Assembly (NCBI GenBank): GCA_009996615.1 | Contig: JAACZU010000002.1 | Coordinates: 206,045-270,044, forward strand | Direction: 5' to 3' | Length of the DNA: 64,000 nt | DNA from: Rhodanobacteraceae bacterium | GTDB lineage: Bacteria; Pseudomonadota; Gammaproteobacteria; Xanthomonadales; Rhodanobacteraceae | Part shown: in pieces, positions 11,703 through 49,756 of the stretch | How positions within the stretch are numbered: position 1 is the stretch's first letter | How the letters are laid out: every line of letters starts with the position of its first letter | The notes under the pieces: generated by a model | Databases searched by the model: none | What the model saw: only the letters and a program-made list of their open reading frames with translations | Told to the model about the DNA's origin: nothing | Translations under genes and position numbers: made by a program

Positions 11703-11715
11703 GGAGTACTGAATC

Positions 11716-11880: not shown

Positions 11881-11889
11881 CGCAATGGC

Positions 11890-11916: not shown

Positions 11917-11929
11917 GCCGTTGCGTCAT

Positions 11930-14589: not shown

Positions 14590-14744
14590 GGCGTCGATCT
14601 CCACTTCAGGCAAAGGGGCGGCATCCGCGCAAGCGCGGAGGCATCGTGTCGCGGGGAGGCAGACCGCAAGCCGCCGCGGCGGATTCCGGTCTGCCGCCCC
14701 GCCTTCCCCGGCACGCCGGGGAAGGCGGATGCGGCCGGTACGGC

Positions 14745-15308
14745 TTAGATCTTGCCGACCAGGTCCAGCGACGGCGCGATCGTCTTGGCGCCTTCCTTCC
14801 ACTTGGCCGGGCAGACCTCGCCCGGATGGTTGGCGACGTACTGCGCGGCCTTCAGCTTGCGCAGCGTCTCGGTCACGTCACGCGCGATCGCGTTGTCGTG
14901 GACCTCCATCGTCTTGATGACGCCGTCCGGATTGATGATGAAGGTGCCGCGCAGGGCGAGGCCTTCTTCCGGGATGTGCACGCCGAACGCGTTGGTCAGC
15001 TGGTGGGTCGGGTCGCCGACCAGCGGGAACTGCGCCTTGCCGACCGCCGGCGAGGTTTCGTGCCACACCTTGTGCGAGAAGTGCGTGTCGGTCGTGACGA
15101 TGTAGACCTCGGCGCCGGCCTTCTGGAACTCGGCGTAATGGTCGGCCGCGTCCTCGACTTCGGTCGGGCAATTGAAGGTGAAGGCCGCCGGCATGAAGAT
15201 GACGACCGACCACTTGCCCTTGAGGCTGGCGTCGGAGACTTCCACGAACTTGCCGTTATGGAAAGCCTGTGCCTTGAACGGCTGGACCGTGGTGTTGATC
15301 AGAGACAT
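14745..15308 (-). CDS. ahpC: Alkyl hydroperoxide reductase subunit C (2-Cys peroxiredoxin)
   Basis: A 187-residue peroxiredoxin that reduces hydrogen peroxide and organic peroxides; AhpF recycles it. The peroxidatic Cys47 is in [10 protein letters not shown] and the resolving Cys166 in [27 protein letters not shown] is typical of enterobacterial-type AhpC. MPAAFTF replaces the more common YPADFTF, a mild variation. GAGGACGC precedes the ATG at 15308. Expression is probably under peroxide control: a perfect 16-bp palindrome lies just upstream of a good promoter (see 15349-15401). Confidence 0.97.
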
Positions 15309-15348
15309 CAATGCGTCCTCTTGGTTGGGGGTGGTGAATTGGCCTTGC

Positions 15349-15401
15349 ATCCTAGGACACGGGCCTGCGTTTGTGAAATCGATCGATGGAATGGATTCCA
15401 T
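15349..15401 (-). promoter_or_regulatory. Predicted ahpC promoter with upstream palindrome
   Basis: Read on the minus strand, TTCACA (15377-15372) and TAGGAT (15354-15349) are separated by 17 bases, a good sigma-70 promoter 40 bases before the ahpC ATG. Directly upstream of the -35 box is the perfect palindrome ATGGAATCCATTCCAT (15386-15401), the position expected for an activator such as OxyR. The palindrome does not match the textbook OxyR ATAG-N7-CTAT pattern well, so the regulator is inferred. Confidence 0.55.
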
Positions 15402-15543
15402 AGGCCTCATGTATGGGGCCGGTGACCACCCGCTTCAACACGCAACTGACGTGCACTGGGTCCGGCCGATCAGGGGGCGCGGCTGGCCGGCATGGCCGCA
15501 GCGCCGGCTCGCGCCGGCGGACACGATCGATACGCGACAAAAG

Positions 15544-15568
15544 AAAACCCGCCGTGGAGGCGGGTTTT
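15544..15568 (-). terminator. Terminator of the desaturase gene (possibly bidirectional)
   Basis: AAAACCCGCC (15544-15553) pairs perfectly with GGCGGGTTTT (15559-15568) around a five-base loop. On the minus strand it is followed by CTTTTG, giving a good intrinsic terminator 27 bases after the desaturase stop. The rest of the gap between ahpC and the desaturase (15402-15543) shows nothing else recognisable. Confidence 0.8.
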
Positions 15569-15594
15569 CGGGGTTTGCGGGAGGCGGCAGCGAC

Positions 15595-16788
15595 TCAGTG
15601 GTGTTCGGCGACGCGGTAGCCCTTCAGGCGCGCGGCGAAGTCGGCCAGCGTACGGATGCCGGTCGCCTCGGCCTCGCGACACCACTCCTTGAGCGCATCG
15701 AGCATGCCGTCGGCGTTGCGCCCGTTGCGCTCGGTCAGCGCGGCCAGGCGCGCGCGGAATTCGCACACCGTGCGCAGCTTCGGGCACTGCTCGGTGAACG
15801 CGACCATGCGCTCGCGCGAGGCCGCGTCGAGCCAGCGGCCGCCGTTGCCGAGCGCGCGGCGCAGCTTGCGCGGCAGCGCCTTCAGGCTGGCGCTGGTGTT
15901 CTCGCGCAGGGTCGGCACGATCACGCCGCGGAAATAGTCGCTCATCACGTGGAAGCGGTGCGCCAGCAGCGCCTTGACCGTCTCGGTGTCGGGCAGGTGC
16001 ATGTTCGGGCGGATGTCGAGCGTCGGCGCCACGCGCAGCACCTTGGCCAGGCCGAGCTTTTCGAACAGGCAGATCGCGGCCCAGCCGATGTCGAATTCCC
16101 ACTTGCGCAGCGCGAACTTGGCCGAGCTCGGGAACGCGTGGTGGTTGTTGTGCAGCTCCTCGCCGCCGATCCACACGCCCCACGGCGACAGGTTGGTCGA
16201 GGTGTCGGCCGATTCGAAGTTGCGGTAGCCCCACCAGTGGCCGAGGCCATTGACGAAGCCGGCGGCCCAGAACGGAATCCAGATCATCTGGATCGCCCAC
16301 ATCGCGATGCCGACCGAACCGAACAGCAGCAGCATGACCACGGCCAGCAGCGTCGGGCCCCAGTACGGGTGCTTGCCGTAGAGGTGGCGCTCGAGCCAGT
16401 CGTCCGGCGTGCCGCGGCCGTACTTGTCCATGTCGTCGAAGTTCTCGGCCGCGTCGCGGTACAGCGACACGCCGTCCCAGAACACCTTCTTGATGCCGTG
16501 GACCTGCGGGCTGTGCGGATCCTCCGCGGTCTCGACCTTCGCGTGGTGCTTGCGGTGGATCGCGACCCATTCCTTGGTCACCATGCCGGTCGTCAGCCAC
16601 GACCAGAAGCGGAAGAAGTGCGCCAGCACCGGGTGGAAGTCGACGCCGCGGTGGGTCTGGCTGCGGTGCAGGTACAGCGTGACCGTGAAGATCGTGAGCT
16701 GCGTCGCGATCAACATGTACACGAGCCAGGTGCCCCAGGAAGCCTGGGTCAGGCCGCGCGCGGCGAAGGAGATCAGGAAATCGAGCAT
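15595..16788 (-). CDS. Membrane fatty acid (acyl-CoA) desaturase
   Basis: A 397-residue di-iron membrane desaturase introducing a double bond into acyl chains, likely delta-9, in the inner membrane. The three histidine boxes are present: LHRSQTHRG, AIHRKHHAK and EELHNNHHAFP. Hydrophobic segments surround them (LVYMLIATQLTIFTVTLYL; LLAVVMLLLFGSVGIAMW). The C-terminal 100 residues are hydrophilic, as in the DesA/delta-9 group of Pseudomonas and Xanthomonas. ATG 16788 gives MLDFLISFAARGL; a further upstream ATG at 16821 would add MAIPPLRCFLS and cannot be excluded. A strong terminator follows at 15544. Confidence 0.9.
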   Translation of the reverse strand: MLDFLISFAARGLTQASWGTWLVYMLIATQLTIFTVTLYLHRSQTHRGVDFHPVLAHFFRFWSWLTTGMVTKEWVAIHRKHHAKVETAEDPHSPQVHGIKKVFWDGVSLYRDAAENFDDMDKYGRGTPDDWLERHLYGKHPYWGPTLLAVVMLLLFGSVGIAMWAIQMIWIPFWAAGFVNGLGHWWGYRNFESADTSTNLSPWGVWIGGEELHNNHHAFPSSAKFALRKWEFDIGWAAICLFEKLGLAKVLRVAPTLDIRPNMHLPDTETVKALLAHRFHVMSDYFRGVIVPTLRENTSASLKALPRKLRRALGNGGRWLDAASRERMVAFTEQCPKLRTVCEFRARLAALTERNGRNADGMLDALKEWCREAEATGIRTLADFAARLKGYRVAEHH

Positions 16789-16948
16789 GGAGAGGAAACA
16801 GCGCAATGGAGGGATGGCCAAAGGCCACTATACGCCCACCGGAATGGGGCCGCACCTGCGCAGGTCAAGTTTGGGCCGGCCGATTTGTGACCGCCATCGC
16901 AAGCTGCGGCTTGCCGTCCGCGGCGCCGGCCTTAACAATCCCGGGCCC

Positions 16949-17872
16949 ATGTCCACTCCGATCCTCGCCCTCGACGCCGTCAGCCGCCGCCTCGCCGGTC
17001 GCATGGTCGTGCACGGCCTCGACCTCGCCATCGCACGCGGCGAGGTGCTCGGCCTGCTTGGCGTCAACGGCGCCGGCAAGACCACGACCTTGCGCATGAT
17101 GGCAGGCGTGCTCGCGCCGAGCGCCGGCACGGTCCGGCTCGGCGGCGAGGACCTGTACGAGCAACCCGAGCTGGCGCGCCGGCGCATCGGCTACCTGCCG
17201 GAGACGCCGCCGCTGCATGCCGAGCTGACCGCGCAGGAGTTCCTCACCTTCTGCGCGCGCCTGCGCGGGCTCGCGCGCGGTGCGGTCGCCGCGGCAATCG
17301 ACCGCACGCTCGAGCGCTGCGCGCTCGGCGAGGTGCGCCACCGCCCGATCGGCGCGCTGTCCAAGGGCTGGCGCCAGCGCATCGGCATCGCGCAGGCGAT
17401 CGTGCACGCGCCGGAGCTGATCGTGCTCGACGAGCCGGCTTCGGGCCTCGACCCGGTGCAGGCGCTGAAGCTGCGCGAACTCGTGCGCGGCCTCGGTCGC
17501 GACCACGCGGTCGTGCTGTCCACGCACGTGCTGCCCGATGTCGCCGCCTGCTGCGACCGCGTCGCGATCCTGCACCAGGGCGTGCTGCGCCACACCGGCC
17601 CGGCCGATGGCGCGGCGCCGGGCGCGCTGCGCGTCGGCGTCGGCACGCCGCTCACCGCCGCCGACTGGGCCGCGCTGGCGCCGGTCGCCGCGGCCGAGCC
17701 GATCGCTCCGATGCGCTGGCGCGTGCGCCTGCGCGCGGACGCGACGCCGGCCGATCTCGCCGCCGCGCTGGTCGGCCGCGGCGTCGGGCTGACCGAACTG
17801 CGCGCCGACGACACGCCGCTCGAGGCGACCTTCCTCGCGATCGCCGCCGGCGACACGGCGGCGGCCGCATGA
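16949..17872 (+). CDS. ABC transporter ATP-binding protein (GldA-like)
   Basis: A 307-residue ATPase: Walker A LGVNGAGKTTTLRMMAG (about residues 39-55), Q-loop replaced by GYLPETPPL, signature LSKGWRQRIGIAQAIV, Walker B LIVLDEPASGLDP, H-loop STHVLPDV. The YLPE sequence and the about 90-residue C-terminal extension are typical of GldA/NatA-type multidrug or gliding-type exporters. It starts a four-gene operon in which each stop overlaps or touches the next start (ATGA at 17869). Gld homologues outside Bacteroidetes usually have no known gliding role. Confidence 0.9.
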   Translation: MSTPILALDAVSRRLAGRMVVHGLDLAIARGEVLGLLGVNGAGKTTTLRMMAGVLAPSAGTVRLGGEDLYEQPELARRRIGYLPETPPLHAELTAQEFLTFCARLRGLARGAVAAAIDRTLERCALGEVRHRPIGALSKGWRQRIGIAQAIVHAPELIVLDEPASGLDPVQALKLRELVRGLGRDHAVVLSTHVLPDVAACCDRVAILHQGVLRHTGPADGAAPGALRVGVGTPLTAADWAALAPVAAAEPIAPMRWRVRLRADATPADLAAALVGRGVGLTELRADDTPLEATFLAIAAGDTAAAA

Positions 17873-18630
17873 GCGCGGTCGGCCTGATCGCGCGCCACGA
17901 ATGGCGGCGCCTGGCGGTGGCCCCGTTCGCGTGGACGCTGGCCGCGGTCGTCGTCGCGCTGATGGCCTGGCAGTTCCTGCTCGCGCTGCAGGGCTTTATC
18001 GACCTCGCGCCGAAGCTCGGCGGCCTCAAGGACGCGCCCGGCGTGACCGACCTCGTCGCGCTGCCGCTGCTGCGCAGCTTCTCGAACCTCTTGATGCTGC
18101 TGGTGCCGCTGATCACGATGCGCACGTTCGCCGGCGAGCGCCGCGCGGCGACGCTGCCGCTCCTGCTCGCCAGCGGCGTCGGCGATGCGCGCATCGTGCT
18201 CGGCAAGTACCTCGGCGCGCTCGGCTACGTGCTCGCGCTGGTCGCGCTGGTCGCGCTGATGCCACTCGCGCTCGGCGCCGGCACCACGCTCGATCTCGGC
18301 AAGCTCGCCGCCGCGACGCTGGGGCTCGCGCTGTTCGCCGCCGCGCTGACCGCGCTCGGCGTGCTGTGCTCGGCCTGGGCCGCGCAGCCGGCGCTGGCAG
18401 CCGCCGCCACGCTCGCGCTGACCGCGCTGCTCGCGGTCGTCGACGCCGGCGCGCGCCTGCAGGGCGTGGCCAACGCCGGCATCAACTACCTCGCGCTGCC
18501 GACGCACCTGGAGCCGTTCTTCCGCGGCATCGTCGCCAGCGTCGACGCCATGTATTTCATGCTGCTCGCCGGCGTCGCGCTGGCGCTGGCGGTGCGCCGC
18601 CTGGGCGCCTTGCGCACGAGGGCCGACTGA
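17869..18630 (+). CDS. ABC transporter permease (GldF-like)
   Basis: A 253-residue membrane protein of the ABC-2 permease family. It has about six hydrophobic segments, among them FAWTLAAVVVALMAWQFLLAL, LLRSFSNLLMLLVPLITM, YVLALVALVALMPLAL and AMYFMLLAGVALALAV. RTFAGERRAATLPLLLASGV after the second segment is typical of GldF/NosY-type permeases. Its start overlaps the ATPase stop by four bases, and its TGA overlaps the next ATG by one base. Confidence 0.85.
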   Translation: MSAVGLIARHEWRRLAVAPFAWTLAAVVVALMAWQFLLALQGFIDLAPKLGGLKDAPGVTDLVALPLLRSFSNLLMLLVPLITMRTFAGERRAATLPLLLASGVGDARIVLGKYLGALGYVLALVALVALMPLALGAGTTLDLGKLAAATLGLALFAAALTALGVLCSAWAAQPALAAAATLALTALLAVVDAGARLQGVANAGINYLALPTHLEPFFRGIVASVDAMYFMLLAGVALALAVRRLGALRTRAD

Positions 18631-32328: not shown

Positions 32329-34554
32329 TCAGGGCGCCGGCTTCAGCTTCTCGTCGAAGTAGGCCGCGATCAGTGTGTAGACGTGCGTGCGCAACGCCGG
32401 CGTCGACAGCCCGTGCTTGGCGCCCGGATACGTCATCAGGCGGAACTGCGTGCCGCGCTGCTGCAGTGCGGCCATCAGCTTGGTCGAGTTGGCGAACAGC
32501 ACGTTGTCGTCGGCCATGCCGTGCGCGAGCAGCAGCTTGTCGGACGCAAGGCCGTCGAGCCAGTGCAGCACGCCGGACAGCTCATAGCCCTGCGCGTTGT
32601 TTTGCGGCGTGTCGAGGAAGCGCTCGGTGTAGTGCGTGTCGTACAGGCTCCAGTCGGTGACCGGCGCGACCGCGACACCGGCGGCGATGTCGGCGTCGGC
32701 CTTGGCCAGCAGCATCAATGTCTGGAAGCCACCGTAGCTCCAGCCGAACACGCCGATGCGCCCGCCGTCGACCCACGGCTGCGCCTTCAGCCAGGCGAGG
32801 CCGGCACGCTGGTCGGCGATCTCGGGCTTGCCGAGCTGCTTGAAGATCGCGTCGGAGAACGCGCGCCCGCGCCGCGGCGTGCCGCGGTTGTCGAGCGCGA
32901 ACACGACGTAGCCGTGCTGCGCCATGTACTGCTCGAAGTGCGCGCCCCAGGCGCGGTTGACGTACTGCCGGCCGGGACCGCCGTAGTAGGTCATGAACAC
33001 GGGGTATTTTTTCCCCGGATCGAAACCGAGCGGCTTGAACACGCGGTAGTACAGGTCCTGGCCGTCCTCGCTCTTGAGCGAGCCGAACTGCGGCGCGACC
33101 TGGCTGTCGCGGTACGGCCAGTACGGATGGCCGTCCTTCAGTTCGTTCTGCTCGATCCAGGCGATGCGCGTGCCGTCGGCGCGGCGCAGCGACACCTGCG
33201 GCGGCGTGGCCGGATCGGAGAACGTGTCGATCCACGCGCTCGCGTTGTCGCCGAACACGGCCTCATGCCAGCCGTCGCCCTCGCTGAGGCGCTTGGCGCG
33301 GTCGGCGTCGCGGCCGTCGAGGCGGGCGACGTAGACCTGGCGCTGCAGCGGATCATCTCGGTTGGCGGCGAAGTAGACCAGGCCTGCCTTCTCGTCGAGC
33401 GCGAGCAGCTTGTCGACGTCGAACGCGCCGCGCGTCAGCGTGCGCCGCGGCGTGCCGTCGAGGCCGATCACGTAAAGGTGCTTGTAGCCGTCGCGCTCGG
33501 ACGCCCACACGAACGCGTCCTCGTGCTTGAGGAAGCGCAGGTCGTCGTGCAGGTTGATCCAGGTCGCGCGGGTTTCGGTCAGGAGCGGCGTCTGCGCCAG
33601 CGTGGCGACGTCGACCGCGACGAGGTCGAGGCGGCGCTGGTCGCGGCTCTGGCGCTGGAAGCTGATGCGCCTGGCGTCGGGCAGCCAGTCGACGCGCGCG
33701 AGGTAGATGTCGGCCTCGGGCCCGAGATCGATCCAGCGCGCCTCGCCGCCGCCCGGCGCGACCAGGCCGAGCCTGACCGCGACGTTCGGCCGGCCGGCGG
33801 CCGGGTAGCGCTGGCGGATCACCTCGGTGCGGTCGGCGTAGACCTCGCTGCGCTCGACCTCGTCGACGCCGGATTCGTCGTAGCGCTCGAACGCGATCGC
33901 CGAATCGTCCGGCGCCCACCAGTAGCCGGTCAGCCGGTCCATCTCTTCCTGCGCGACGAACTCGGCCTCGCCGTTGTGGATCGGACCCTTGCCGTCGTGC
34001 GTGAGCTGCACGGTCGTGCCGCTGGCGAGCTCGATCGCGTACAGGTTCTGCGCGCTGACCCAAGACACATAGCGGCCCTTCGGCGAGACCTTCGCGTCGA
34101 TCACCTCGACGCCCTTGGGCGTCAGCGCGCGCAGCGCCTGCTCGCCCTTCGTATGAAGGTCGTACAGCCACAGCCGCTCGTCGACGCTGAACAGCAGCTT
34201 GCCGCTGTCAGGCGCCCAGCGGTACGACACGATGCCCTTCAACTGCGCGATGCGCGCGCGCTCGCGGCGCGCCTTCTCGGCATCGGACAGTTCCTTGTGT
34301 CCGCCCAGCGCGAGCGAATCGACCAGCCGGCGCGTCTTGCCGCTGTCGATCGCGTATTCCCACAGGTCGAGCTGGTTCTGGTCGTCGGCGCGACCGCGCA
34401 GGAACGTGACGCGGCGGCCGTCCGGCGCGATCTTCAGTTCGCGCGGGCTCGGCCCATCGAGGCCGGCGGCGCCGTAGATGCGGTCGATGGTCAGGCGTTC
34501 GGCGTGCACGAGAGGGCTCGACAACAGGAGGACGGAAAGGATCAGGCGGCGCAT
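32329..34554 (-). CDS. Dipeptidyl peptidase IV (S9B family)
   Basis: A 741-residue prolyl peptidase that removes Xaa-Pro dipeptides. Signal peptide MRRLILSVLLLSSPLVHA, then an N-terminal beta-propeller of about 450 residues with the substrate-binding double glutamate in FVAQEEMDR, then the alpha/beta hydrolase domain. Catalytic Ser606 is in GWSYGG, Asp682 or 683 in MADDNVLF and His714 in GAKHGLS. VFMTYYGGPGRQYVNRAWG is the usual oxyanion region. It is periplasmic by its signal. The start at 34554 is preferred to one at 34590 because it begins the signal peptide. Confidence 0.95.
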   Translation of the reverse strand: MRRLILSVLLLSSPLVHAERLTIDRIYGAAGLDGPSPRELKIAPDGRRVTFLRGRADDQNQLDLWEYAIDSGKTRRLVDSLALGGHKELSDAEKARRERARIAQLKGIVSYRWAPDSGKLLFSVDERLWLYDLHTKGEQALRALTPKGVEVIDAKVSPKGRYVSWVSAQNLYAIELASGTTVQLTHDGKGPIHNGEAEFVAQEEMDRLTGYWWAPDDSAIAFERYDESGVDEVERSEVYADRTEVIRQRYPAAGRPNVAVRLGLVAPGGGEARWIDLGPEADIYLARVDWLPDARRISFQRQSRDQRRLDLVAVDVATLAQTPLLTETRATWINLHDDLRFLKHEDAFVWASERDGYKHLYVIGLDGTPRRTLTRGAFDVDKLLALDEKAGLVYFAANRDDPLQRQVYVARLDGRDADRAKRLSEGDGWHEAVFGDNASAWIDTFSDPATPPQVSLRRADGTRIAWIEQNELKDGHPYWPYRDSQVAPQFGSLKSEDGQDLYYRVFKPLGFDPGKKYPVFMTYYGGPGRQYVNRAWGAHFEQYMAQHGYVVFALDNRGTPRRGRAFSDAIFKQLGKPEIADQRAGLAWLKAQPWVDGGRIGVFGWSYGGFQTLMLLAKADADIAAGVAVAPVTDWSLYDTHYTERFLDTPQNNAQGYELSGVLHWLDGLASDKLLLAHGMADDNVLFANSTKLMAALQQRGTQFRLMTYPGAKHGLSTPALRTHVYTLIAAYFDEKLKPAP

Positions 34555-36804: not shown

Positions 36805-37166
36805 GCTCGACCCCTTCAAGCACTGGCTGGACGACCAGCGCCCGAAGGTGCTCGGCAACAGCGGCCTGAACGGCGCTATCGACTACACGTTGCGGCCCTG
36901 GAGCGCGCGCTCGCGCGCTTCCTCGCGGACGGCACCTGGTCGATCGACAACAAGCCGATCGAGAACGCGATCCGGCCGATTGCCCTCGGCCGCAAGAACT
37001 GGCTATTCGCCGGCTCGGAAAACGCCGGCGAACGCGCTGCCGCGATCATGAGCCTGATCGCCACCGCCAAGGCCAACGGCATTGAGCTGCACGCCTGGCT
37101 GACAGACGTGCTCACCCGCTGCCGGCCAAGGACCGCAACATCGACTCGCTGTTGCCGCTGGCCTGA
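36805..37166 (+). pseudogene. IS66-family transposase C-terminal remnant
   Basis: Conceptual translation gives the C-terminus of an IS66 TnpC transposase in three frames. Frame one: FKHWLDDQRPKVLGNSGLNG. After a shift near 36893: GTWSIDNKPIENAIRPIALG and RKNWLFAGSENAGERAAAI, the conserved end of the catalytic domain. After a second one-base shift near 37121: LPAKDRNIDSLLPLA and a stop at 37164. The N-terminal 80% and the accessory tnpA/tnpB genes are absent. It marks the left edge of the island and shows that older mobile-element activity occurred here. Confidence 0.88.
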
Positions 37167-37234
37167 TCCGCAATCCTGGGGCGAGGTGGGAAGGGCTGAC
37201 GTTGCAAAACACCTAGACAGGCAAGGGAGATTTG

Positions 37235-37321
37235 AAGAGCTTTATTCTCAGAAAGTATGATTTTTGTGATATTTATATGCTACATTTACAATATGTAGGT
37301 AGAATGTGCCTGGGGACTGTT
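37235..37321 (+). promoter_or_regulatory. AT-rich promoter region with inverted repeat
   Basis: About 85 bases of conspicuously AT-rich DNA (around 30% GC against about 70% nearby) lead into the island operon. It contains TTGTGATATTTATATGC and the inverted repeat CTACAT-N7-ATGTAG (37280-37285 and 37293-37298), which looks like an operator. TGGGGA at 37311-37316 is the ribosome site of the first gene. Exact -35 and -10 boxes cannot be assigned with confidence. Confidence 0.5.
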
Positions 37322-37549
37322 ATGCGAGATAAGCGTAGTCGGTTCATCGAGCTCGGCGAAGCGAGAGTCACCAAGGCGACCCAGATGCTTCGGCTGATCG
37401 GCAATCTGGCGAACTCGAACAACTACGAGTATTCAGCCGAGGACGCCTACAAGATCTTCACGGCGCTTGACGCCGAGATGAAGCTGTTGAAAGCCAAGTT
37501 CCAGACCGCCCTGAGCAAGCGGCCGAAGGACGAATTCAAGCTCGGTTAA
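37322..37549 (+). CDS. Small basic helical protein, first gene of island operon
   Basis: A 75-residue protein, MRDKRSRFIELGEARVTKAT at the start and IRLIGNLANSNNYEYSAED-like sequence in the middle (actual LRLIGNLANSNNYEYSAEDA). It should be mostly helical and the C-terminal EMKLLKAKFQTAL could form a coiled coil. Proteins with this RFxELxExRVxKA...RLIGNLxNxxNYEY pattern are, as far as I recall, widespread small proteins found in accessory and defence gene clusters; no function is established. GGGGA lies five bases before the ATG. The next gene starts 12 bases after its stop. Confidence 0.8.
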   Translation: MRDKRSRFIELGEARVTKATQMLRLIGNLANSNNYEYSAEDAYKIFTALDAEMKLLKAKFQTALSKRPKDEFKLG

Positions 37550-37561
37550 GGGAGAGACGAG

Positions 37562-39364
37562 ATGGGATGGTTGTTTCACGCCAGCGACCCGATGGGAGGG
37601 GCGGCCGGCGAGGCGTTCGCAAACACGCTGAAATCTCCGGGCATGCTGCCCGAGCACGTTCTGGCCCGCGAAGCGATCCAGAACTCGGTCGACGCCGGCA
37701 ATGGCGCGAAGGTCGAAGTTCGCTTCCGCGCGAGCGTCGTGAAGGGAGCCAAGAAGACTGCCTTCGTCCAAGCCGCTGACCTTGGCCGCATCGCCGAGCG
37801 CTCCAAAGAGCTGATGCTCTCCGGCCCCAACTGCCTCTCGACGCTCGACAAGCCGCAGAAGGAGCTCTGCCTGCTCTACGTTGAGGACTACAACGCGGTG
37901 GGCCTGTCGGGCGATCCGCACGACAAGAACTCGAACTTCTATCGCCTACTGTTGTCGCTTGGCGACCGCTCCAAGTCGCGCACCGCGCAGGGCAGCACCG
38001 GCGGCTCCTACGGCTTCGGCAAATCGGTCTACTCGTCGAGTTCGGCGATCCAAACCATCTTCGCCTACACGCGATTCAAGGACGGCGACACCGAGCGCAC
38101 GCGAGTCTTCGGCTGCGGCTACTTCGTCAGCCACGACTTCAAGAAGCAGCCATACAGCGGTCGAGCCTGGCTCGGCATGCCAGAGAAGACGGACAACAAG
38201 GGCCGTGTCGTCGTCGATCCCATCGAAGGCGTGAAAGCGGACGAACTGGCGGCCAAGCTCGGCTTCACGCTGCGCAAGGCCGGCGAGCTGGGAACCTCGA
38301 TCTTGATCGTCGACGCCGCCGTCGATATCAAGGCCATCGAGCGTGGCATCGAAGACTGGTGGTGGCCTCGCCTGATCGAGAATAAGCTTGACGTGGTCAT
38401 CCAAGACAGCGATGGCACCGACCACTATCCGAAGCCAAAGAAGAATCCGGCTATCAAGCCCTTCATCGAAGCCTACGATGTGGCCGTGGGCCGCGCGGTG
38501 CCGAAGATCGGCGTCCACAAGCTCGCCCCCTTCAACAAGGAAGGCGGCTTGGAGATGGGGCGCTGTGGCTTCGTCGTCGCGCCGCTCGATCCGAGCGGCA
38601 ATGCGACCGTCCCGCCTGAGCGCGTCAACTCCGTCGCGCTGATCCGCAGTCCGCTCATGGTGGTCGCCTATCACCCGGTTTCGCAGGCCAATCCCGCGAT
38701 CGTCGGCGCCTACGTCGCGCCGGACGAGGACGCCGTGGAGCAGCTGCTGCGCAAGAGCGAGCCGCCCGCGCACGATCGCTGGGATCCGGACTCGACGAAT
38801 CTGCGCGACGAGGATCAGAAGGGCCGCGGCATCGTCCAGTCGATCCTCAACCGGATCAAGACTCAGCTGCGCAAGTTTCAGACCGAGGCGGCTCCGGCCA
38901 CTCCGGTCAAGCAGCGCCGCATGACTCAGCTTGAGCGCGCGCTCGGCACGTACTTCAAGCCGAGCGGCAGCCCTGGAAATCCGCCTCCGCCGGAAGCGGG
39001 ACCGTCTCCGCTGCACCTGGAATTCTCGAAGGCGCCTTACGCCGAGGCAGCCGATGACGGCATGCTGCGGCTGAAGAGCATCTTCACAGTGCGCCTCGAC
39101 GACTCCTCGGAGGAAGACTCTGTGCCGCTGCGCCTGCAGATGAACTGCCCAGTGCTCGAAGACAACAACGAGGAAGGCGACAACCTCCCGCTGTCCATCG
39201 TCGTCGAAGGCGTGGAAGCGGTGAGCGATGAGGCCAACCCGTGGACCTATCGCTTCACCCTGCCTAGGAACGGAAAGGCGAAGTTCAAGGTCGAGTCCGC
39301 GCCGTACGACCCGGCGTGGACGGTCCGCCTGCGCCCTGACATCGACCGCGTGGAGGTGCAGTGA
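37562..39364 (+). CDS. GHKL-family ATPase of the island (putative defence ATPase)
   Basis: A 600-residue protein with a Bergerat ATP-binding fold at its N-terminus. N-box REAIQNSVDAG (Glu37 ... Asn41), G1 box YVEDYNAVGLSG (Asp109, Gly114), and lid GSTGGSYGFGKSVYSSSSA (residues 144-162). The G1 box is the EDxxxxGL variant seen in GHKL ATPases of restriction-type clusters rather than the DxGxG of MutL or gyrase. The rest (residues 170-600) is not recognised; a C-terminal region rich in acidic residues follows a basic linker near residue 440. The gene overlaps the next start (GTGA at 39361). Likely an ATP-driven conformational switch, by analogy to MutL and MORC proteins (inference). Confidence 0.82.
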   Translation: MGWLFHASDPMGGAAGEAFANTLKSPGMLPEHVLAREAIQNSVDAGNGAKVEVRFRASVVKGAKKTAFVQAADLGRIAERSKELMLSGPNCLSTLDKPQKELCLLYVEDYNAVGLSGDPHDKNSNFYRLLLSLGDRSKSRTAQGSTGGSYGFGKSVYSSSSAIQTIFAYTRFKDGDTERTRVFGCGYFVSHDFKKQPYSGRAWLGMPEKTDNKGRVVVDPIEGVKADELAAKLGFTLRKAGELGTSILIVDAAVDIKAIERGIEDWWWPRLIENKLDVVIQDSDGTDHYPKPKKNPAIKPFIEAYDVAVGRAVPKIGVHKLAPFNKEGGLEMGRCGFVVAPLDPSGNATVPPERVNSVALIRSPLMVVAYHPVSQANPAIVGAYVAPDEDAVEQLLRKSEPPAHDRWDPDSTNLRDEDQKGRGIVQSILNRIKTQLRKFQTEAAPATPVKQRRMTQLERALGTYFKPSGSPGNPPPPEAGPSPLHLEFSKAPYAEAADDGMLRLKSIFTVRLDDSSEEDSVPLRLQMNCPVLEDNNEEGDNLPLSIVVEGVEAVSDEANPWTYRFTLPRNGKAKFKVESAPYDPAWTVRLRPDIDRVEVQ

Positions 39365-40287
39365 GTAACATCACTTGGCGTAAGTCCGCCACCAAAGACG
39401 TTCGCCCCTTCTTCGGCGCGGCGACGCTTGAAAGCAGCGTCGAGCTGGCCGAGATCCGCCTCTACGAAGACGGCGCATTCATGGCCGACACCGCCCACGC
39501 GGTGGAGCCGTCGGACAGCCAGCCGCTCGACATCGTGATCCGGCCCAATCTCGCGCTGCCCGCGGAGATGCCGATGGCCAAAGGCGATCTGGTCCTGGCC
39601 GTGACGGCGGTCCAGCCGTTCATGAAGAAGACCATCGTCGTCGCAACCCATAAGGTGTCGGGCAAGATCCCCGACGAGATCGGCGTGGGCAGCGACATCA
39701 TCGACAAGCTCGGCGGCTCCAACGTGATCATTGAAGTGGCTCTTTGCCTCGGCAAGCAGCTCGCCAAAAAACCCGGCAGCCCGTTCCTGCTCGGCCACTG
39801 GCTCTCGAAGAAGAGCTTCGCCATCAAGACTCCCAAGTTGGCCGAGGCCTTCCCGATTGAGCCGATGACGGACGAACAATGGAAGCTGATCGGCTATCCC
39901 GCCAAGACGCTCTACACCGTCCAATACATCGGAGGCTTCAACGACCCCGTGGGCAAGGACAGCCACCTCGCCACGGTGCGCATCCATGCCGACGTTCACA
40001 AGAAGCTGACGCTTGAATCCGCGCAGCGCCTGGCCAAGCCCATGATGGCTTCGCTGGCCGCCGAGATCACGGGTCACATCATCGCCGCCAGCGTGTCCGA
40101 GTGGGAGGGCGCCGATGAGGCCGCCAACGGCAGTCCGCTGTCCGCCTTCTTGAAGCGGATGGAGCGTATCGATTCGAAGTTCACGTTCGAAAAGTTCAAG
40201 GAATTCGCCAAAGAACCAGGGATGCCGCGACTCAAGGCGCTGCTCCATGCTGACCAGCAGTCGGTCCGCTCCATCGCTGAGGGCTGA
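39361..40287 (+). CDS. Hypothetical protein, third gene of island operon
   Basis: A 308-residue protein starting with GTG at 39361, overlapping the ATPase stop by four bases. I do not recognise a family. It starts SNITWRKSATKDVRPFFGA, has a strand-rich N-terminal half (PLDIVIRPNLALPAEMP; DLVLAVTAVQPFMKKTIVV), a central KKSFAIKTPKLAEAFPIEP and a helical C-terminus. No signal peptide, membrane segment, nuclease or helicase motif is seen. Strict coupling to the ATPase suggests the two products act together in fixed ratio. Confidence 0.8.
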   Translation: MSNITWRKSATKDVRPFFGAATLESSVELAEIRLYEDGAFMADTAHAVEPSDSQPLDIVIRPNLALPAEMPMAKGDLVLAVTAVQPFMKKTIVVATHKVSGKIPDEIGVGSDIIDKLGGSNVIIEVALCLGKQLAKKPGSPFLLGHWLSKKSFAIKTPKLAEAFPIEPMTDEQWKLIGYPAKTLYTVQYIGGFNDPVGKDSHLATVRIHADVHKKLTLESAQRLAKPMMASLAAEITGHIIAASVSEWEGADEAANGSPLSAFLKRMERIDSKFTFEKFKEFAKEPGMPRLKALLHADQQSVRSIAEG

Positions 40288-40292
40288 GGAAC

Positions 40293-41033
40293 ATGCGATA
40301 TCCAATCATGACGGCGGGCGACGCCACCACCTACCTGCAAGCCAAGCGCGCGGGTAACCAACTGGACGTTGAATCCCTCGCGCGATTCGCGGGCTCCGGC
40401 GACGAATTCGACAGCTCGTTCTTGCAGCCTCTGCGCGCCGAGCTCACGAAATTGATGGCGAGCTTCCCCGAGGGCATCAAGTCCAAGTCGGACCCGAAGG
40501 CCAACGCATTTGAGGGCAAGGCGTCCCGCGTCATTCACGAGAGCCTCGCGGTCGGCAGCGAAGTCCTGGCAGATCCGGAGTTCTGGATCTGGCTGGCGGT
40601 GACGCACTTTCCGGATGTCGTCGAATGGCGCTATCGCTACGGCAAGGAAGATAGAGCCGCGCAGTTGGCGAACTATGGCGTCGGCTCTCGCACGGAGAAC
40701 CTCCTCTACCGCATCTGGCTGCGGGCTGAGCTGGTGCTCGACGAAGAGGCAGCCGATCGCTATCATCTCGCCAACTCGGGACAGATCGACTTCTATCGAA
40801 GCCATCTCTTCCGACAGGGTTACGCGAACGCCCGCAACTTCGCCCGGGCGCTGTTGCGGTTCCAATACCCGAAGAAGTCGAGTCCGGCGGAGCCGAAGCT
40901 CAAGCTCTTGGAGATCCGCGATCTCGTCAAGCGGTTGCGCCGGATGCGATCCAACCTATTCCTAGAAATCCTCCCTGAGGAGGATTGCCGCGCCGTCATC
41001 GAAGCGGAGGCGGCAGTCGTTTTGGCCAGTTGA
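40293..41033 (+). CDS. Hypothetical protein (possibly DUF6339-like), fourth gene of island operon
   Basis: A 246-residue, mainly helical protein. MRYPIMTAGDATTYL is followed by a core with many aromatics: PEFWIWLAVTHFPDVVEWRY, RIWLRAELVLDEEA and FYRSHLFRQGYANARNFARA. This core reminds me of DUF6339, a family I recall near cytosine methyltransferases and Vsr nucleases, but I cannot check it. No catalytic motif is evident. GAGGAAC immediately precedes the ATG, using the previous gene's stop region. The stop touches the next ATG (TGAATG), so it is coupled to the methyltransferase. Confidence 0.78.
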   Translation: MRYPIMTAGDATTYLQAKRAGNQLDVESLARFAGSGDEFDSSFLQPLRAELTKLMASFPEGIKSKSDPKANAFEGKASRVIHESLAVGSEVLADPEFWIWLAVTHFPDVVEWRYRYGKEDRAAQLANYGVGSRTENLLYRIWLRAELVLDEEAADRYHLANSGQIDFYRSHLFRQGYANARNFARALLRFQYPKKSSPAEPKLKLLEIRDLVKRLRRMRSNLFLEILPEEDCRAVIEAEAAVVLAS

Positions 41034-42338
41034 ATGAGTGAAATCCCGTTGGAGGCCTACTCTCTGTCCGAGGGGCGAGTGGTGAGGACCGTATCAGTCG
41101 GAGACAGATCATGGACGTCGGCGGTGGACAACCGCGCGGACGCCGGCCTGCAGCCGGCGGGAGCCTGGTGGCAGAGCTTCCTCCGCGGCGGCACGGTCTA
41201 CGTCGACTCGTCGGTGGGCAAGCCTAAGAAGATCCGCAGCGTCGACGCCTTTTGCGGCAGCGGGGGCTTGACCCTGGGGGCGGCCCAGGCGGCCATTGCC
41301 ACCGGCCACGTCCTTGAATCCGTCGCGGCGATCGACGTGGACGACGATGGGCTGGCCATCCACAGGGCCAATTTCGGCACCAAGCACATCCTGCATTCGA
41401 ACGCGTCCAGCCTCGTCGACTGGCACGTCAGCGGCGAGGGCGAAAGGTCGCGCTTCGCATACGAGCCGGAGATCATCGATCCGGCGCTCGCGGGCGAAGT
41501 CGGCAACATCGATCTGTTCCTGGCCGGGCCGCCCTGCCAGGGCCATTCGAACCTCAACAACAAAACCCGTCGCGAGGACCCTCGCAACCTGCTTTACGTC
41601 ACCGCGGTTGCGCTGGGCGTAGGCCTGCGAGCGAAGTCCATCGTCATCGAAAACGTCCCCGAGGTCGTAAACGACAAGAGCGACGTGGTCAACATCGCCA
41701 AGGCGCTGTTGAAGGCGGCGGGCTATGCGTGGATCGACAGCGGCGTGCTTGCCGCCGATCACATGGGCGGAGCGCAGACCCGCAAGCGCTATTTCCTTGT
41801 CGCCTCGCGCGTATCCGAGCCGGTTGCCGAGCTGTCGATCAAGGAAGTGGCGAAGGGCTTGAAGCACGCCGCCAGGCCGTTGAGCTGGGCGATTGGCGAC
41901 CTGCTCAGCGATCCGTCACAGGAGCCGAAGACCGGCATCATGGATACAACGCCGATGCTGTCGGCCGACAATCTGACGCGCATCCGCCACCTCTTCGACA
42001 ACAACCTCCATGACCTGCCCAACGAGGTCCGCCCCGATTGCCACAAGGACGGGCACACCTATCCTTCGGTCTACGGGCGGTTGTGGTGGGACAAACCCGC
42101 CCAGACGATCACGACGGGCTTTTTGACTCCCGGCCGTGGCCGTTATATCCATCCGCTGCATCCTCGCGTCATTACGCCGCACGAGGCGGCGCGCATCCAG
42201 TCGTTTCCCGACACGTTCTCATTCGTGGTCGACACCGCGAATCCGCCAAGCCGCACGGGCATCCAAAAGTGGATTGGCGACGCCGTGCCTCCTCTCCTCG
42301 GATATGCCGCGACCTTGCCCTTGATGGTTCGCTTGTAG
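41034..42338 (+). CDS. DNA (cytosine-5)-methyltransferase
   Basis: A 434-residue C5-methyltransferase with all key motifs in order: I SVDAFCGSGGLTLGAA, IV LAGPPCQGHS (catalytic Cys), VI IVIENVPEV, VIII GGAQTRKRYFLVAS, IX VITPHEAARIQSFPD and X WIGDAVPPLLG. The variable target-recognition region between VIII and IX is short (about 90 residues), so the target is probably a short palindrome. An extra N-terminal segment of about 67 residues precedes motif I. It methylates host DNA; in the operon it sits after three non-modification genes and just before the Vsr nuclease (9-bp gap). Confidence 0.95.
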   Translation: MSEIPLEAYSLSEGRVVRTVSVGDRSWTSAVDNRADAGLQPAGAWWQSFLRGGTVYVDSSVGKPKKIRSVDAFCGSGGLTLGAAQAAIATGHVLESVAAIDVDDDGLAIHRANFGTKHILHSNASSLVDWHVSGEGERSRFAYEPEIIDPALAGEVGNIDLFLAGPPCQGHSNLNNKTRREDPRNLLYVTAVALGVGLRAKSIVIENVPEVVNDKSDVVNIAKALLKAAGYAWIDSGVLAADHMGGAQTRKRYFLVASRVSEPVAELSIKEVAKGLKHAARPLSWAIGDLLSDPSQEPKTGIMDTTPMLSADNLTRIRHLFDNNLHDLPNEVRPDCHKDGHTYPSVYGRLWWDKPAQTITTGFLTPGRGRYIHPLHPRVITPHEAARIQSFPDTFSFVVDTANPPSRTGIQKWIGDAVPPLLGYAATLPLMVRL

Positions 42339-42347
42339 CCTTGGGTC

Positions 42348-42803
42348 GTGGACACCATCTCGCCCGAACGCAGATCCGTGCTCATGAAGCGCGTGAAGCG
42401 CTCGGACACGAAACCTGAGGTTACGCTTCGCAAGGCGCTCCATCGACTGGGATTCCGCTACGTCATCGGCGACAAGCGACTGCCGGGCACCCCCGACCTT
42501 GTCTTACCAAAGCACAAGGCCGTCGTGTTCGTGCACGGCTGCTTCTGGCACGGCCATGAGTGCCGCCAAGGGCGCACGCCGAGCTCTAACGTGAACTATT
42601 GGGCGCCCAAGATCGCGGCGAATCGCGCGCGCGATGCTCGCAAAGTCAAAGCCCTACTCCACCTCGGTTGGCGAGTCTTCACCGTGTGGGAATGCGAGCT
42701 AAAGCAGGCTGTGGCACTGGACACCGCTAAGCAGTTGGCTAGCCAGATAAACAATCAATCCAACGGGCCTTCCACTCGCTGCCGCGATGCACAGCATTCA
42801 TGA
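42348..42803 (+). CDS. vsr: Vsr-type (very short patch repair) endonuclease
   Basis: A 151-residue Vsr-family nuclease. The catalytic aspartate is in PGTPDLVLPKHKAVVFVHG, followed by GCFWHGHECRQG with the active-site histidine and zinc ligands, NYWAPKIAANRARDARK, and LGWRVFTVWECEL with the last zinc cysteine. In E. coli, Vsr nicks T:G mismatches at Dcm sites. Here it could serve repair beside the methyltransferase, or act as the cutting subunit of a restriction system, as proposed for Vsr proteins in GHKL clusters. It starts with GTG at 42348. The C-terminal 25 residues after SQINNQ look untypical. Confidence 0.93.
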   Translation: MDTISPERRSVLMKRVKRSDTKPEVTLRKALHRLGFRYVIGDKRLPGTPDLVLPKHKAVVFVHGCFWHGHECRQGRTPSSNVNYWAPKIAANRARDARKVKALLHLGWRVFTVWECELKQAVALDTAKQLASQINNQSNGPSTRCRDAQHS

Positions 42804-42839
42804 GTCTTAACAGGTTGATCCAGGCTGGAGAGCAGCCCC

Positions 42840-42867
42840 AAAAAAAGGGACAGCTTGGAACGCTGTC
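42840..42867 (-). terminator. Intrinsic terminator of mnmE
   Basis: On the minus strand GACAGC-GTTCCAA-GCTGTC (42867-42849) is followed by CC and seven T residues (42846-42840). The hairpin begins inside the mnmE stop codon. It would also stop read-through from mnmE into the island operon, which faces it. Confidence 0.85.
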
Positions 42868-44212
42868 ACTTGCCGATGCAGAACGAGGAAAAGATCGCGC
42901 CGAGCAGGTCGTCGGGGGTGAATTCGCCGGTGATCTCGCCGAGCGCGTGCTGGACCTGGCGCAATTCTTCGGCGGCCAGTTCGCCGGCGCGCTGCACGGT
43001 CAGTGCGTCGTCAGCGGCGGCGAGGTGGTCGCGCGCGCGTTCGAGCGCGGCGACGTGGCGCGCGCGCGCGGTGAACGCGCCCTCGCCCGCTTCGGCGGTG
43101 CCGGCGTGGCGCTGCAGTTCGGCGACGAGCAGGTCGAGGCCGGCGCCGCTCCTGGCCGACAGCCACAGGTGCGTGCGGCCGTCGAGCGTTTGCGCGTGCG
43201 GCGTGGCGCCGGCGAGGTCGATCTTGTTGTGCACGACGAGTTGCGCCGCGCCGGGCGGCAGGCCGGCGAGCAGGGCGAGGTCGGCGTCGGCGTGCGCGTC
43301 GTCGCTGACCAGCAGCGCGAGGTCGGCGCGTTCGAGTTCGGCGCGCGCGCGGCGGATGCCTTCGGCCTCGACCGCGTCGCCGGCCTCGCGCAGGCCGGCG
43401 GTGTCGACCAGGGTCAGCGCGATGCCGTCGAGGTCGATCGCCTCGCGCAGCACGTCGCGCGTGGTCCCGGCGATGTCGGTCACGATCGCGCGTTCGCTCG
43501 CGGCGAGCGCATTAAGCAGGCTCGACTTGCCGACGTTCGGGCGGCCGACGATGACCACGTGCAGGCCGTCGGCGAGGCGCACGCCGCGGCGCGCGGCGGC
43601 AAGCAGGTCGGCGAGGTCGGCGCGGATCGCTGCGAGGTCGGTCGCGAGCTGCGGCGCGGCGAGGAAGTCGATCTCCTCTTCCGGAAAGTCGATCGCGGCC
43701 TCGATCCAAACGCGCAGGCCGATGACCGCCTCGGTCAGCGCGTGCACGCGCGCCGAGAACACGCCGTCGAGGCTGCGCTGCGCGGCGCGCGCGGCGGCTT
43801 CCGAGCCGCTCGCGATCAGGTCGGCGACCGCCTCGGCCTGGGCGAGGTCGAGCTTGCCATTGAGGAACGCGCGTTCGGAGAACTCGCCCGGCCGCGCGTG
43901 GCGCGCGCCGAGCTCGAGGCAGCACGCGAGCAACAGGCGCAGAACGACCGGGCTGCCGTGTGCCTGCAGTTCGAGCACGTCCTCGCCGGTGTAGGAGTGC
44001 GGCGCCGGAAACCACAGCAGCAGGCCGCGGTCGATCAGCGCGCGATCGCGGTCGCGGAACGCGGCGTAGTGCGCGTGGCGTGGAGTCGGCGCGCGGCCGA
44101 GGAAGGCCCGCGCGATCGCGCCGGCATGCGGGCCGGACACGCGCAGCACGCCGACACCACCGGCGCCGGGCGCGCTGGCCACGGCGGCGATCGTGTCGGC
44201 GGCGCTGTTCAT
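42866..44212 (-). CDS. mnmE: tRNA uridine-5-carboxymethylaminomethyl modification GTPase MnmE
   Basis: A 448-residue GTPase that, with MnmG, modifies wobble uridine of tRNAs. The N-terminal formyl-THF domain starts [20 protein letters not shown]; the G domain has [19 protein letters not shown] and [10 protein letters not shown], and NKIDLAG; the C-terminus ends FSSFCIGK with the essential cysteine. The start [10 protein letters not shown] at 44212 gives normal length. The 3' end (FCIGK codons) corresponds to the integration site used by Salmonella genomic island 1-type elements, and an accessory island lies right beside it here. Confidence 0.97.
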
Positions 44213-47085: not shown

Positions 47086-48420
47086 ATGAGCGAGCTTTGG
47101 CGCCGCTGCCTGGCCCGTCTGGAGACGGAGTTCAGCGCGGAGGACATTCATACCTATCTGGCCCCGCTGCAGGTCGTCGAGGACGGCGCGGGCATCACGC
47201 TGTGGGCGCCCAACGCCTACACCGTGGAAACCGTGCGCGAGCGCTTCGTCGACCGCATCGACGAAGTGCTCGAGCACCTCGCCGGCCATGCGGTCGCGCT
47301 GAGCGTGCAGGTCGGCACACGCACGCGCAGCCGCGAGGCGACCAAGCCGGCCGCCGCGGCGCCGCGCGGCAAGAGTGCCGGCGTCGCGCGCGCGCCGGCC
47401 GAATCGAACCTCGATCCGAACTACACGTTCGAGAACTTCGTCGAGGGCAAGTCGAACCAGCTCGGCAAGGCCGCCGCGACGCAGGTCGCGATGAATCCCG
47501 GCCATGCCTACAACCCGCTGCTGCTGTACGGCGGCACCGGCCTGGGCAAGACCCACCTGATGCACGCGGCCGGCAACCTGATGCGCGCGAACCGGCCCGA
47601 CATGAAGGTGCTGTACCTGCGCTCGGAGCAGTTCGTCAGCGGCATGGTGCGCGCGCTGCAGCAGAAGAACATGGACGACTTCAAGCGCCGCTTCCGTTCG
47701 GTCGATGCGCTGCTGATCGATGACATCCAGTTCTTCGCCGGCAAGAACACGACGCAGGAAGAGTTCTTCCACACCTTCAACACGCTGTTCGAGGGCAAGC
47801 AGCAGATCATCCTGACCTGCGATCGCTACCCGAAGGAAGTGGAGAACCTCGAGCCGCGCCTGAAGTCGCGCCTGGGCTGGGGCCTGTCGGTCGCGATCGA
47901 GCCGCCGGACTTCGAGACGCGCGCGGCGATCGTGCTGGCCAAGGCGCAGGCGAAGAAGGTCGCGCTGCCCGAAGAGGTGGCGATCCTGATGGCCAAGCGC
48001 ATGCGCTCGAACGTGCGCGACCTCGAGGGCGCACTGAACACGCTGGTCGCGCGCGCGAACTTCGAGGGCCGCCGCATCAGCCTGGAGTTCGCGCAGGAGA
48101 CGCTGCGCGACCTGCTGACCGTGCACGCGCAGGCGATCACGATTCCGAACATCCAGAAGACCGTGGCCGACTTCTACCAGCTGCGCCTGGCCGACCTGTT
48201 GTCGAAGAAGCGCAGCCGCTCGATCGCGCGCCCGCGCCAGATGGCGATGGCGCTGGCCAAGGAGCTGACCGAACACAGCCTGCCGGAGATCGGCGATGCA
48301 TTCGGCGGCCGCGACCACACGACCGTCCTGCACGCCTGCCGCACGATCCGCGATTTCCGCGAGACCGACGGCAAGTTGCGCCAGGACTGGGAAAAGCTGG
48401 TAAGGACGTTGAGCGAATAG
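47086..48420 (+). CDS. dnaA: Chromosomal replication initiator DnaA
   Basis: A 444-residue AAA+ initiator that binds DnaA boxes and opens oriC. Domain I starts [17 protein letters not shown]; a short variable linker (alanine- and arginine-rich, about residues 80-107) follows; domain III has [20 protein letters not shown] (Walker A) and LLIDDIQFF (Walker B); domain IV carries the signature [15 protein letters not shown]. Length fits xanthomonad DnaA. GGAAG lies ten bases before the ATG. dnaN, recF and gyrB follow in the standard order. Confidence 0.98.
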
Positions 48421-48655
48421 CGAAACTGCGCACAAGCCCGGGGATGGCCTGTGGAAAAGCTGTGCGATCGCGCGGCGCCGATTATTATCCACAGGGGGTC
48501 CACAGCCATGCCGGTTTGTTCTACCGCGCTTCAAAACTGCGCAACCGATTGATTTTGAAAGATTTACGGACGGAACTGCAGTTGTGCACAGCACCAACCG
48601 CAACCACGATCCTCTTTAAAAGACCAAGAGCCAGAGATAGACGGGGCAGACCACC
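48421..48655. other. Probable replication origin oriC (dnaA-dnaN gap)
   Basis: This 235-bp gap holds a perfect DnaA box TTATCCACA (48485-48493), a one-mismatch box on the other strand (TGTGGAAAA, 48450-48458), weaker candidates TGCGCACAA (48427-48435) and TTGTGCACA (48582-48590), and an AT-rich stretch GATTGATTTTGAAAGATTTA (48547-48566) that could unwind. Origins in this position are known for relatives. The small number of strong boxes means part of the origin could lie elsewhere. Confidence 0.65.
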
Positions 48656-49756
48656 ATGCGATTCAGCATCCAACGCGAAGCATTCCTGAAACGACTGCAA
48701 CAGGTTGTCGGCGTCGTCGAACGACGACAGACGCTGCCGGTGCTGGCGAACCTGCTGGTCGTGGTTGACGCGAACGGCGTTTCGTTGACCGGCACCGATC
48801 TGGAAGTGGAGATGATCGCGCGGACCGATGCGGACGAGCTGGAGCCGGGCGAGGTCACGATCCCGGCGCGCAAGCTGTTCGACATCTGCCGCGCACTGCC
48901 CGACGGCAGCCGGATCAAGCTGGAGCAGAAGGGCGATCGCGTATCGGTCAGTTCCGGCCGCAGCCGCTTCACGCTGGCGACGCTGCCGGCGACCGAGTTC
49001 CCGCTGATCGAGAACATCGAGCTGGTCGAGCGCGTCAGCCTGCCGGAAGCCACGCTGAAGGAGCTGATGGACCGTACCAGCTTCGCCATGGCCAACCAGG
49101 ACGTGCGCTACTACCTCAACGGCATGCTGCTGGACCTGCGCGAACACGCGCTGCGCTGCGTCGCGACCGACGGCCACCGCCTCGCGCTGGCCGAGACGCA
49201 GATCGAGACGCAGGTCGCCGCGCCGCGCCAGGTGATCGTGCCGCGCAAGGGCATCAACGAGCTGCAGGGCCTGTTCGAACCGGGCGACGGCGTGGTCGAA
49301 CTCGAGTTCGCGCGCAACCACCTGCGCGTGCGTCGCGACGGTGTCACGTTCACGTCCAAGCTGATCGACGGCCGCTTCCCGGACTACGAGGCGGTGATTC
49401 CGATCGGCGCCGACAAGGAAGTGCGCGTGCAGCGCGATGACGTGCGTGCAGCGCTGCAGCGCGCGGCGATCCTGTCGAACGAGAAGTACCGCGGCGTCAA
49501 GCTCGAAGTCGCTCCGAACCGGCTGCGCATCGTCGCGCACAACCCGGAGCAGGAAGAGGCGATCGAAGACGTCGAGGCGCAAACCGGCGTCAGCGACCTC
49601 AGCGTCGGCTTCAACGTGAACTACCTGCTCGACGCGCTCGGCGCACTGTCCGGGGAGGAGGTCATGCTGTGCCTGCGCGACGGACAGTCGAGCTGCCTCG
49701 TGCGCAAGCCCGAGTCGGACGACACGCGCCACGTGATCATGCCGCTGCGGCTCTGA
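48656..49756 (+). CDS. dnaN: DNA polymerase III beta subunit (sliding clamp)
   Basis: A 366-residue processivity clamp: MRFSIQREAFLKRLQQVVGV at the start, LPVLANLLVVVDANG, ATLPATEFPLIE, YYLNGMLLDL, LRCVATDGHRLAL and FNVNYLLDAL, and the C-terminal HVIMPLRL that forms part of the peptide-binding pocket. Length equals E. coli DnaN (366). Start at 48656 is fixed by the conserved N-terminus. The 181-bp gap to recF contains a CTCTCCC...GGGAGAGG repeat at 49782-49799. Confidence 0.98.
   Translation: MRFSIQREAFLKRLQQVVGVVERRQTLPVLANLLVVVDANGVSLTGTDLEVEMIARTDADELEPGEVTIPARKLFDICRALPDGSRIKLEQKGDRVSVSSGRSRFTLATLPATEFPLIENIELVERVSLPEATLKELMDRTSFAMANQDVRYYLNGMLLDLREHALRCVATDGHRLALAETQIETQVAAPRQVIVPRKGINELQGLFEPGDGVVELEFARNHLRVRRDGVTFTSKLIDGRFPDYEAVIPIGADKEVRVQRDDVRAALQRAAILSNEKYRGVKLEVAPNRLRIVAHNPEQEEAIEDVEAQTGVSDLSVGFNVNYLLDALGALSGEEVMLCLRDGQSSCLVRKPESDDTRHVIMPLRL

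Follow-up and report, generated by a model that had tools for sequence, protein, structure and literature searches.

A compact six-gene operon of the paraMORC2/PDC-M33 type, predicted to act in phage or plasmid defence

The six genes and their surroundings

The window analysed here, a stretch of 64,000 nucleotides from contig JAACZU010000002.1 of a Rhodanobacteraceae bacterium, carries at 37322-42803 six genes on the + strand that, to judge from their sequences, probably form a system of phage or plasmid defence. The first (g1, 37322-37549) encodes a small protein of 75 amino acids (aa), which could be a regulator or partner of GHKL ATPases, and the list of open reading frames (ORFs) also holds an alternative frame of 105 aa from an upstream TTG. 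Then follow the GHKL ATPase of 600 aa (gene 2, or A, 37562-39364), a partner protein of 308 aa without any family (gene 3, or B, 39361-40287), which by position and profile is the counterpart of PDC-M33B in its own clade, and a DUF6339 protein of 246 aa (gene 4, or C, 40293-41033; PF19866, 1.1e-9). The last two genes encode a C5-cytosine DNA methyltransferase (MTase) of 434 aa (gene 5, 41034-42338; PF00145, 3.7e-34) and a Vsr mismatch endonuclease of 151 aa (gene 6, 42348-42803; TIGR00632, 1.4e-44). From g1 to gene 6 the junctions are, in order, +12, -4, +5, 0 and +9 base pairs (bp). An inverted repeat, CTACAT-N7-ATGTAG (37280-37298, + strand), lies 24-42 bp upstream of g1 and is a possible operator.

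A first-pass annotation, made from the letters alone, had described six + strand ORFs with overlaps or gaps of at most 12 bp, lower in G+C than their neighbours, without a helicase among them and placed between an IS66 remnant and mnmE, and all of this is borne out. The G+C fraction is 0.60-0.65 in the six 1-kilobase (kb) bins at 37001-43000, and the two flanking bins at either end have 0.67-0.75; a few bins elsewhere in the window are equally low, for instance 0.634 at 48001-49000. The IS66 remnant and mnmE were both recognised by eye from the sequence. Five loci each carry five or six of these genes; among them, the Roseateles copy (L002) has no intact vsr and L049 no detected g1. The ratio of nonsynonymous to synonymous substitution rates (dN/dS) between the window and the Roseateles copy is 0.03-0.18 for the first five genes, whose proteins are 92-99% identical. 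Because of this constraint and the five loci, the six genes are, as far as comparison of copies can tell, a real, constrained operon and more than a chance arrangement.

The ATPase and its two partners

Gene 2 has no match in Pfam or NCBIfam, and its earlier identification as a GHKL ATPase is upheld by the PADLOC model PDC-M33A (1.7e-22 and 77.8 bits, the thresholds of PADLOC itself not having been seen) and by its motifs. The N, G1 and G2 motifs of GHKL proteins are kept, with R36, E37, Q40, N41, D44, G114, G148, G151, G153 and K154 invariant in an alignment of 19 rows; in a wider alignment of 43 rows E37 is found in all 42 that have letters there, and K154 in 40 of 43. Iyer, Abhiman and Aravind 2008 (PMC2292703) define paraMORC2 by ExxxH, a motif towards the end of the S5 domain, and absence of the MORC motif GhXhhpXXRhl is a further criterion. 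The ExxxH motif of A is EPPAH at 400-404, assigned to the S5 domain by position only, and E400 and H404 stand in all 43 aligned sequences. Since the defining motif is thus kept in A and its relatives, we file gene 2, on sequence grounds, as paraMORC2-type. A Pfam scan of 19 A proteins gave chance-level matches only and a PDB search with the A profile no useful one; among phage records window A found one unannotated record of 6 kb, among viral contigs neither window A alone nor an alignment of its clade found a relative, and a search of E. coli genomes led nowhere.

The ATPase tree holds 43 loci, after exclusion of a near copy of L017 (L018), a locus with a cut ORF (L064) and repeats of other loci (L001, L004-L011, L026-L029, L033-L044, L067, L068, L070, L073-L077 and L086-L089); four loci in which g1 accompanies other ATPases (L082-L085) stand outside the set. 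The order A-B-C is found in 43 of 43, repeatedly beside genes of restriction-modification (R-M). The gene after A always encodes 252-356 aa and the next one 226-321 aa (in L022 taken from the annotation). With profiles trained on 18 B and 17 C sequences from the family, B was recognised in 36 loci and assigned by position in seven, and C was recognised in 42 and assigned by position in one. At the level of gene order, A-B-C is a fixed module. Nor is it restricted to one lineage, since it occurs in Arthrobacter and Ligilactobacillus, whose trios match the PADLOC models PDC-M33A, B and C in order, and on haloarchaeal plasmids (L022-L024). There the trio lies near C5 MTases, with a second, partial relative of the ATPase in L023 and L024, and the genes for phospholipase D, a DUF1998 protein and a helicase in L023 call DISARM to mind.

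Of genes 3 and 4, earlier described as two novel coupled proteins, gene 3 is without a family and gene 4 encodes a DUF6339 protein. Window B has no match in Pfam, in PADLOC or among plasmids; the PDC-M33B model does not find it at E values up to 1, nor the B proteins of L003, L045 and L049 at 0.01, and a Pfam scan of 18 B proteins returned two chance-level matches only. Outside its clade, window B is 10-18% identical to the other copies, and M1 and W248 are the only invariant positions in the family; within the clade 31 positions are kept, among them E24, D37, K151, D171 and D200. C matches PDC-M33C at 1.1e-5 (23 bits), a model that leaves the C of L045 without a match, its only family-wide invariants are M1 and W98 (alignment A2), and its family carries no functional annotation in Pfam. 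PDB searches with the B and C profiles gave nothing beyond chance, with chance-level matches for C, and literature searches found no paper naming PDC-M33 or DUF6339. The Trinickia locus (L003:6142-7416) lies next to genes that by eye resemble tssE and tssF of type VI secretion.

The trio is patchy, in 11 of 398 genomes of the phylum, and eight viral contigs as well as plasmids also carry it. Of the 43 loci, 16 have an R-M nuclease or helicase that was recognised as a partner, and unrelated R-M nucleases repeatedly adjoin the trio, a pattern of modular exchange. In the window clade, which comprises five loci, Vsr is the only recognised type of nuclease and the operon has no helicase; of four proteins scanned in the flanks of L045 and L049, two are regulators and two have no family. 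In the sister clade of the ATPase tree are loci with the same trio, MTase and Vsr, and without a detected g1, that also have a helicase and a PD-(D/E)XK protein; L012, L046, L048 and L058 carry both.

Gene 1, the methyltransferase and Vsr

The g1 protein belongs to no family of Pfam, NCBIfam or PADLOC, its one Pfam match being weak and below cut-off, and the sequences of its alignment (A6) are 33-99% identical to it. By profile it is present in 19 of the 43 paraMORC2 loci: in 16 it immediately precedes A, and in L019, L045 and L063 a single gene separates the two. Nine of the 398 phylum genomes carry it, five of them in paraMORC2 loci and four (L082-L085) just upstream of other ATPases, of which that of L082 matches HATPase_c above cut-off, that of L083 falls below cut-off but is close to L082, and those of L084 and L085 were judged GHKL-like by eye. 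Among plasmids 14 records matched: four are known paraMORC2 loci, four further ones were examined and six remain, and in the four examined (L091-L094) the small protein again immediately precedes an ATPase, which in three cases shares homology with the L082 family and in the fourth looks GHKL-like by eye. A GHKL or GHKL-like ATPase thus stands beside g1 in nine of nine phylum genomes (two by eye) and four of four further plasmids (one by eye), and the paraMORC2 profile matches none of the eight ATPases of L082-L085 and L091-L094. As it occurs with several such families, g1 may be a handle to find and control GHKL-type ATPase systems.

The best inverted-repeat arm in the window promoter is 6 bp, which taken alone is not significant (p=0.117). 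When the promoters of all g1 loci except L059 are pooled (18 of 19), the longest arms sum to 119, against 93.6 +/- 4.4 in shuffled sequences, and none of 300 shuffles reaches that value; individually, six of the 18 promoters have p<=0.05. The excess is also larger than at 56 control promoters, picked from the same loci by a mechanical ORF rule, where it is far lower (p=0.0026).

Genes 5 and 6 had been named MTase and Vsr from the start, Pfam and NCBIfam assign both accordingly, and both keep the motifs of their families in sequence. The gene 5 translation contains GPPCQG, which we take to be the C5 MTase motif. Gene 6 retains the CFWHxHxC segment in its alignment with E. coli Vsr (1cw0, 4.9e-27), and among 15 Vsr proteins D50, C65, W67, H68 and C72 are invariant; the Vsr of L049 has Y in place of F66. 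A C5 MTase lies within 7.5 kb in 34 of the 43 paraMORC2 loci. In Roseateles the similarity to vsr stops after about 20 codons (L002:10989-11048), and the five upstream genes are intact. The MTase of L049, also of the window clade, is split in two pieces (L049:12202-13435). The more distantly related L021 has a C5 MTase with a C-terminal tail resembling MutY-type glycosylases (L021:3895-5817; E 0.003 at best, which is weak, and no Pfam match), possibly a substitute for Vsr that could fill the same repair need.

The genome of the window has a second MTase-Vsr pair (L090, G000:C7:151500-169500, positions 8026-18000), where a DrmMII-like C5 MTase is followed by a Vsr without H70 and C116, a DrmA/DrmD-like gene, a protein of 1453 aa (PADLOC models: nearest type IIG, DrmMI second) and a PifA/KAP-like gene. 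We regard this as a DISARM-like locus by its gene content, in which DrmB and DrmC were not seen. Elsewhere in the window, ARAGORN calls a tRNA-Arg of 99 nucleotides at 33273-33371, inside a long peptidase-like ORF, and the call is probably false.

Predicted function and relation to known systems

The reading that we favour, and to which we give an even chance, is that the operon is an exclusion cassette resembling R-M, a compact one of the paraMORC2/PDC-M33 kind. The C5 MTase would mark host DNA; the ATPase would be a dimer that forms a clamp gated by ATP, B and C would serve to read the target or to load the clamp, and A-B-C would engage DNA that lacks the mark and then block its replication or expression, or recruit a host nuclease. 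Vsr would repair the T:G mismatches left by deamination of methylcytosine, and g1 would repress the operon from the promoter operator and may in addition keep the ATPase inactive by binding to it, as an antitoxin does. This reading draws on the fixed A-B-C order, the linkage to MTases, the R-M neighbours, the nuclease-poor clade, the PADLOC models of the trio, the constraint on the genes, the Vsr counts given below, the pairing of g1 with GHKL ATPases and the repeats in the g1 promoters. Several points weigh on the other side. The clamp and the roles of B and C are drawn by analogy from what is known of the GHKL family; within reach of nine of the 43 loci there is no C5 MTase (some are on short contigs, and L055 has other MTases); a locus without a recognised nuclease is one where none was found among the neighbours scanned, and around several loci some neighbours lay outside the scan; the inverted-repeat p is 0.117 in the window, 0.49 in L002 and above 0.05 in 12 of the 18 loci; and E24, D37, D171 and D200 together with K151, kept in the window clade, may belong to a clade-specific nuclease within B.

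The first-pass annotation had let the MTase protect self DNA, which our favoured reading retains as a conjecture, and Vsr cut invaders, which it does not. If Vsr were the restriction nuclease, A-B-C would recognise incoming DNA that is unmethylated or mismatched and guide Vsr to it for nicking, much as MutL assists Vsr and MutH. Vsr is indeed the sole recognised nuclease in four of the five window-clade loci, the 2008 paper (PMC2292703) links paraMORCs with Vsr, and according to the title of a 2018 paper (PMC6116569) MutL and MutS influence the activity of Vsr. A restricting Vsr should however be commoner where no other R-M partner is recognised, and it is found in 9 of 16 loci with such a partner and in 12 of the 22 MTase loci that lack one (Fisher p=1.0), or, among C5 MTase loci only, in 9 of 12 against 12 of 22 (p=0.29), the opposite of that prediction; the counts include short contigs and are based on the neighbours scanned. 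In Roseateles, moreover, vsr is cut short while the other five genes stay constrained between both copies. We find a restricting Vsr unlikely, and because of the E. coli-type motifs, the lack of enrichment where no R-M partner is seen, the MutY-like tail of L021 and the second MTase-Vsr pair beside a DrmMII-like MTase, we read Vsr as a probable repair enzyme for deaminated methylcytosine.

A nuclease could also be hidden in B, or in C, diverged too far to be recognised, which would make the operon a disguised restriction enzyme with an ATPase. The great divergence of B and the acidic residues and lysine kept in its clade would fit, and since 16 of the 43 loci have an R-M partner, a nuclease might be expected at the window too. 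Family-wide, on the other hand, no catalytic residue is kept in B, the database matches of B do not rise above chance, the family of C is without functional annotation, and at many loci a separate nuclease has been added, so B was set aside as a recognisable nuclease and this explanation appears quite unlikely. Still less probable to us is an operon for modification and repair without any part in defence, with the GHKL trio as MutL-like helpers of a solitary MTase and its Vsr. These two do form a known solitary pair, and in Caulobacter it is on account of its Vsr-like protein that a solitary MTase affects fitness (PMC12907096), but the trio recurs with systems that bear restriction endonucleases and on plasmids and viral contigs, is patchy among the phylum genomes, and is listed by PADLOC as a phage defence candidate.

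The exclusion cassette could be taken a step further, to an immunity free of nucleases in which A-B-C, as a MORC-type clamp licensed by the MTase, traps and silences unmethylated DNA, and g1 is a small autoregulated brake common to several dissimilar families of GHKL defence ATPases. We hold this to be a speculative and rather doubtful proposal; if true, it would be a bacterial counterpart of the eukaryotic MORC-based silencing of foreign DNA. The window clade, with five or six genes and neither helicase nor recognised restriction nuclease, is the smallest version that we have seen in which an intact trio is joined by an MTase of its own, and it would allow a clean test of how a MORC-like ATPase trio acts on unmarked DNA; in the open-licence PMC literature, preprints not covered, we found no experimental test of any paraMORC2 system.

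In BREX and other exclusion systems that are licensed by methylation, an MTase protects self DNA without a recognised restriction nuclease. No BREX model is among the PADLOC matches listed for the six genes (for the MTase, 25 of 54). A standard type II R-M system was rejected: the MTase is there (PF00145), but no linked restriction endonuclease is recognised among the six genes, the flanks having been inspected by eye only, and genome-wide searches for EcoRII-C and DUF4420 found no match and were equally silent in control genomes. Druantia was rejected as well, as among the six genes the MTase alone matches its models (DruM-like), and no DruE, DruF or DruG is found among these six. RptR (PMC12255303) is a 79-aa protein at the head of R-M islands that represses itself at palindromes, and g1 is likewise tiny and at the head of its operon. 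RptR goes mostly with type I R-M, however, whereas g1 precedes GHKL ATPases, and the g1 profile gave only chance-level matches to PDB chains and returned no RptR entry, the presence of 9R2Z in that copy being unconfirmed; we therefore treat RptR as a functional parallel to g1 and not as a detected relative. The strongest related experiment that we found is on VcSduA, a paraMORC3-like GHKL ATPase in which an ATPase residue is needed for phage defence; its Shedu nuclease is fused to the ATPase, whereas window A is unfused (PMC12137116).

Closest are the paraMORC2 R-M operons, as paraMORC operons with Dcm, Vsr and superfamily II helicases were predicted already in 2008, and the window shares with them the GHKL motifs, ExxxH and the association with a Dcm-type MTase and Vsr (PMC2292703); a further paraMORC-like association with R-M is given by Bellieny-Rabelo 2021 (PMC8011034). 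The PADLOC candidate PDC-M33 has the same order of three genes. We compared it through its A, B and C models, of which the one for A matches the window, the one for C does so weakly and the one for B fails. The first-pass annotation, which had suggested a distinct or poorly described antiphage or anti-plasmid system, is supported in part: the operon is widely scattered and not a new kind, but within the paraMORC2/PDC-M33 type it is a compact variant that has had little coverage.
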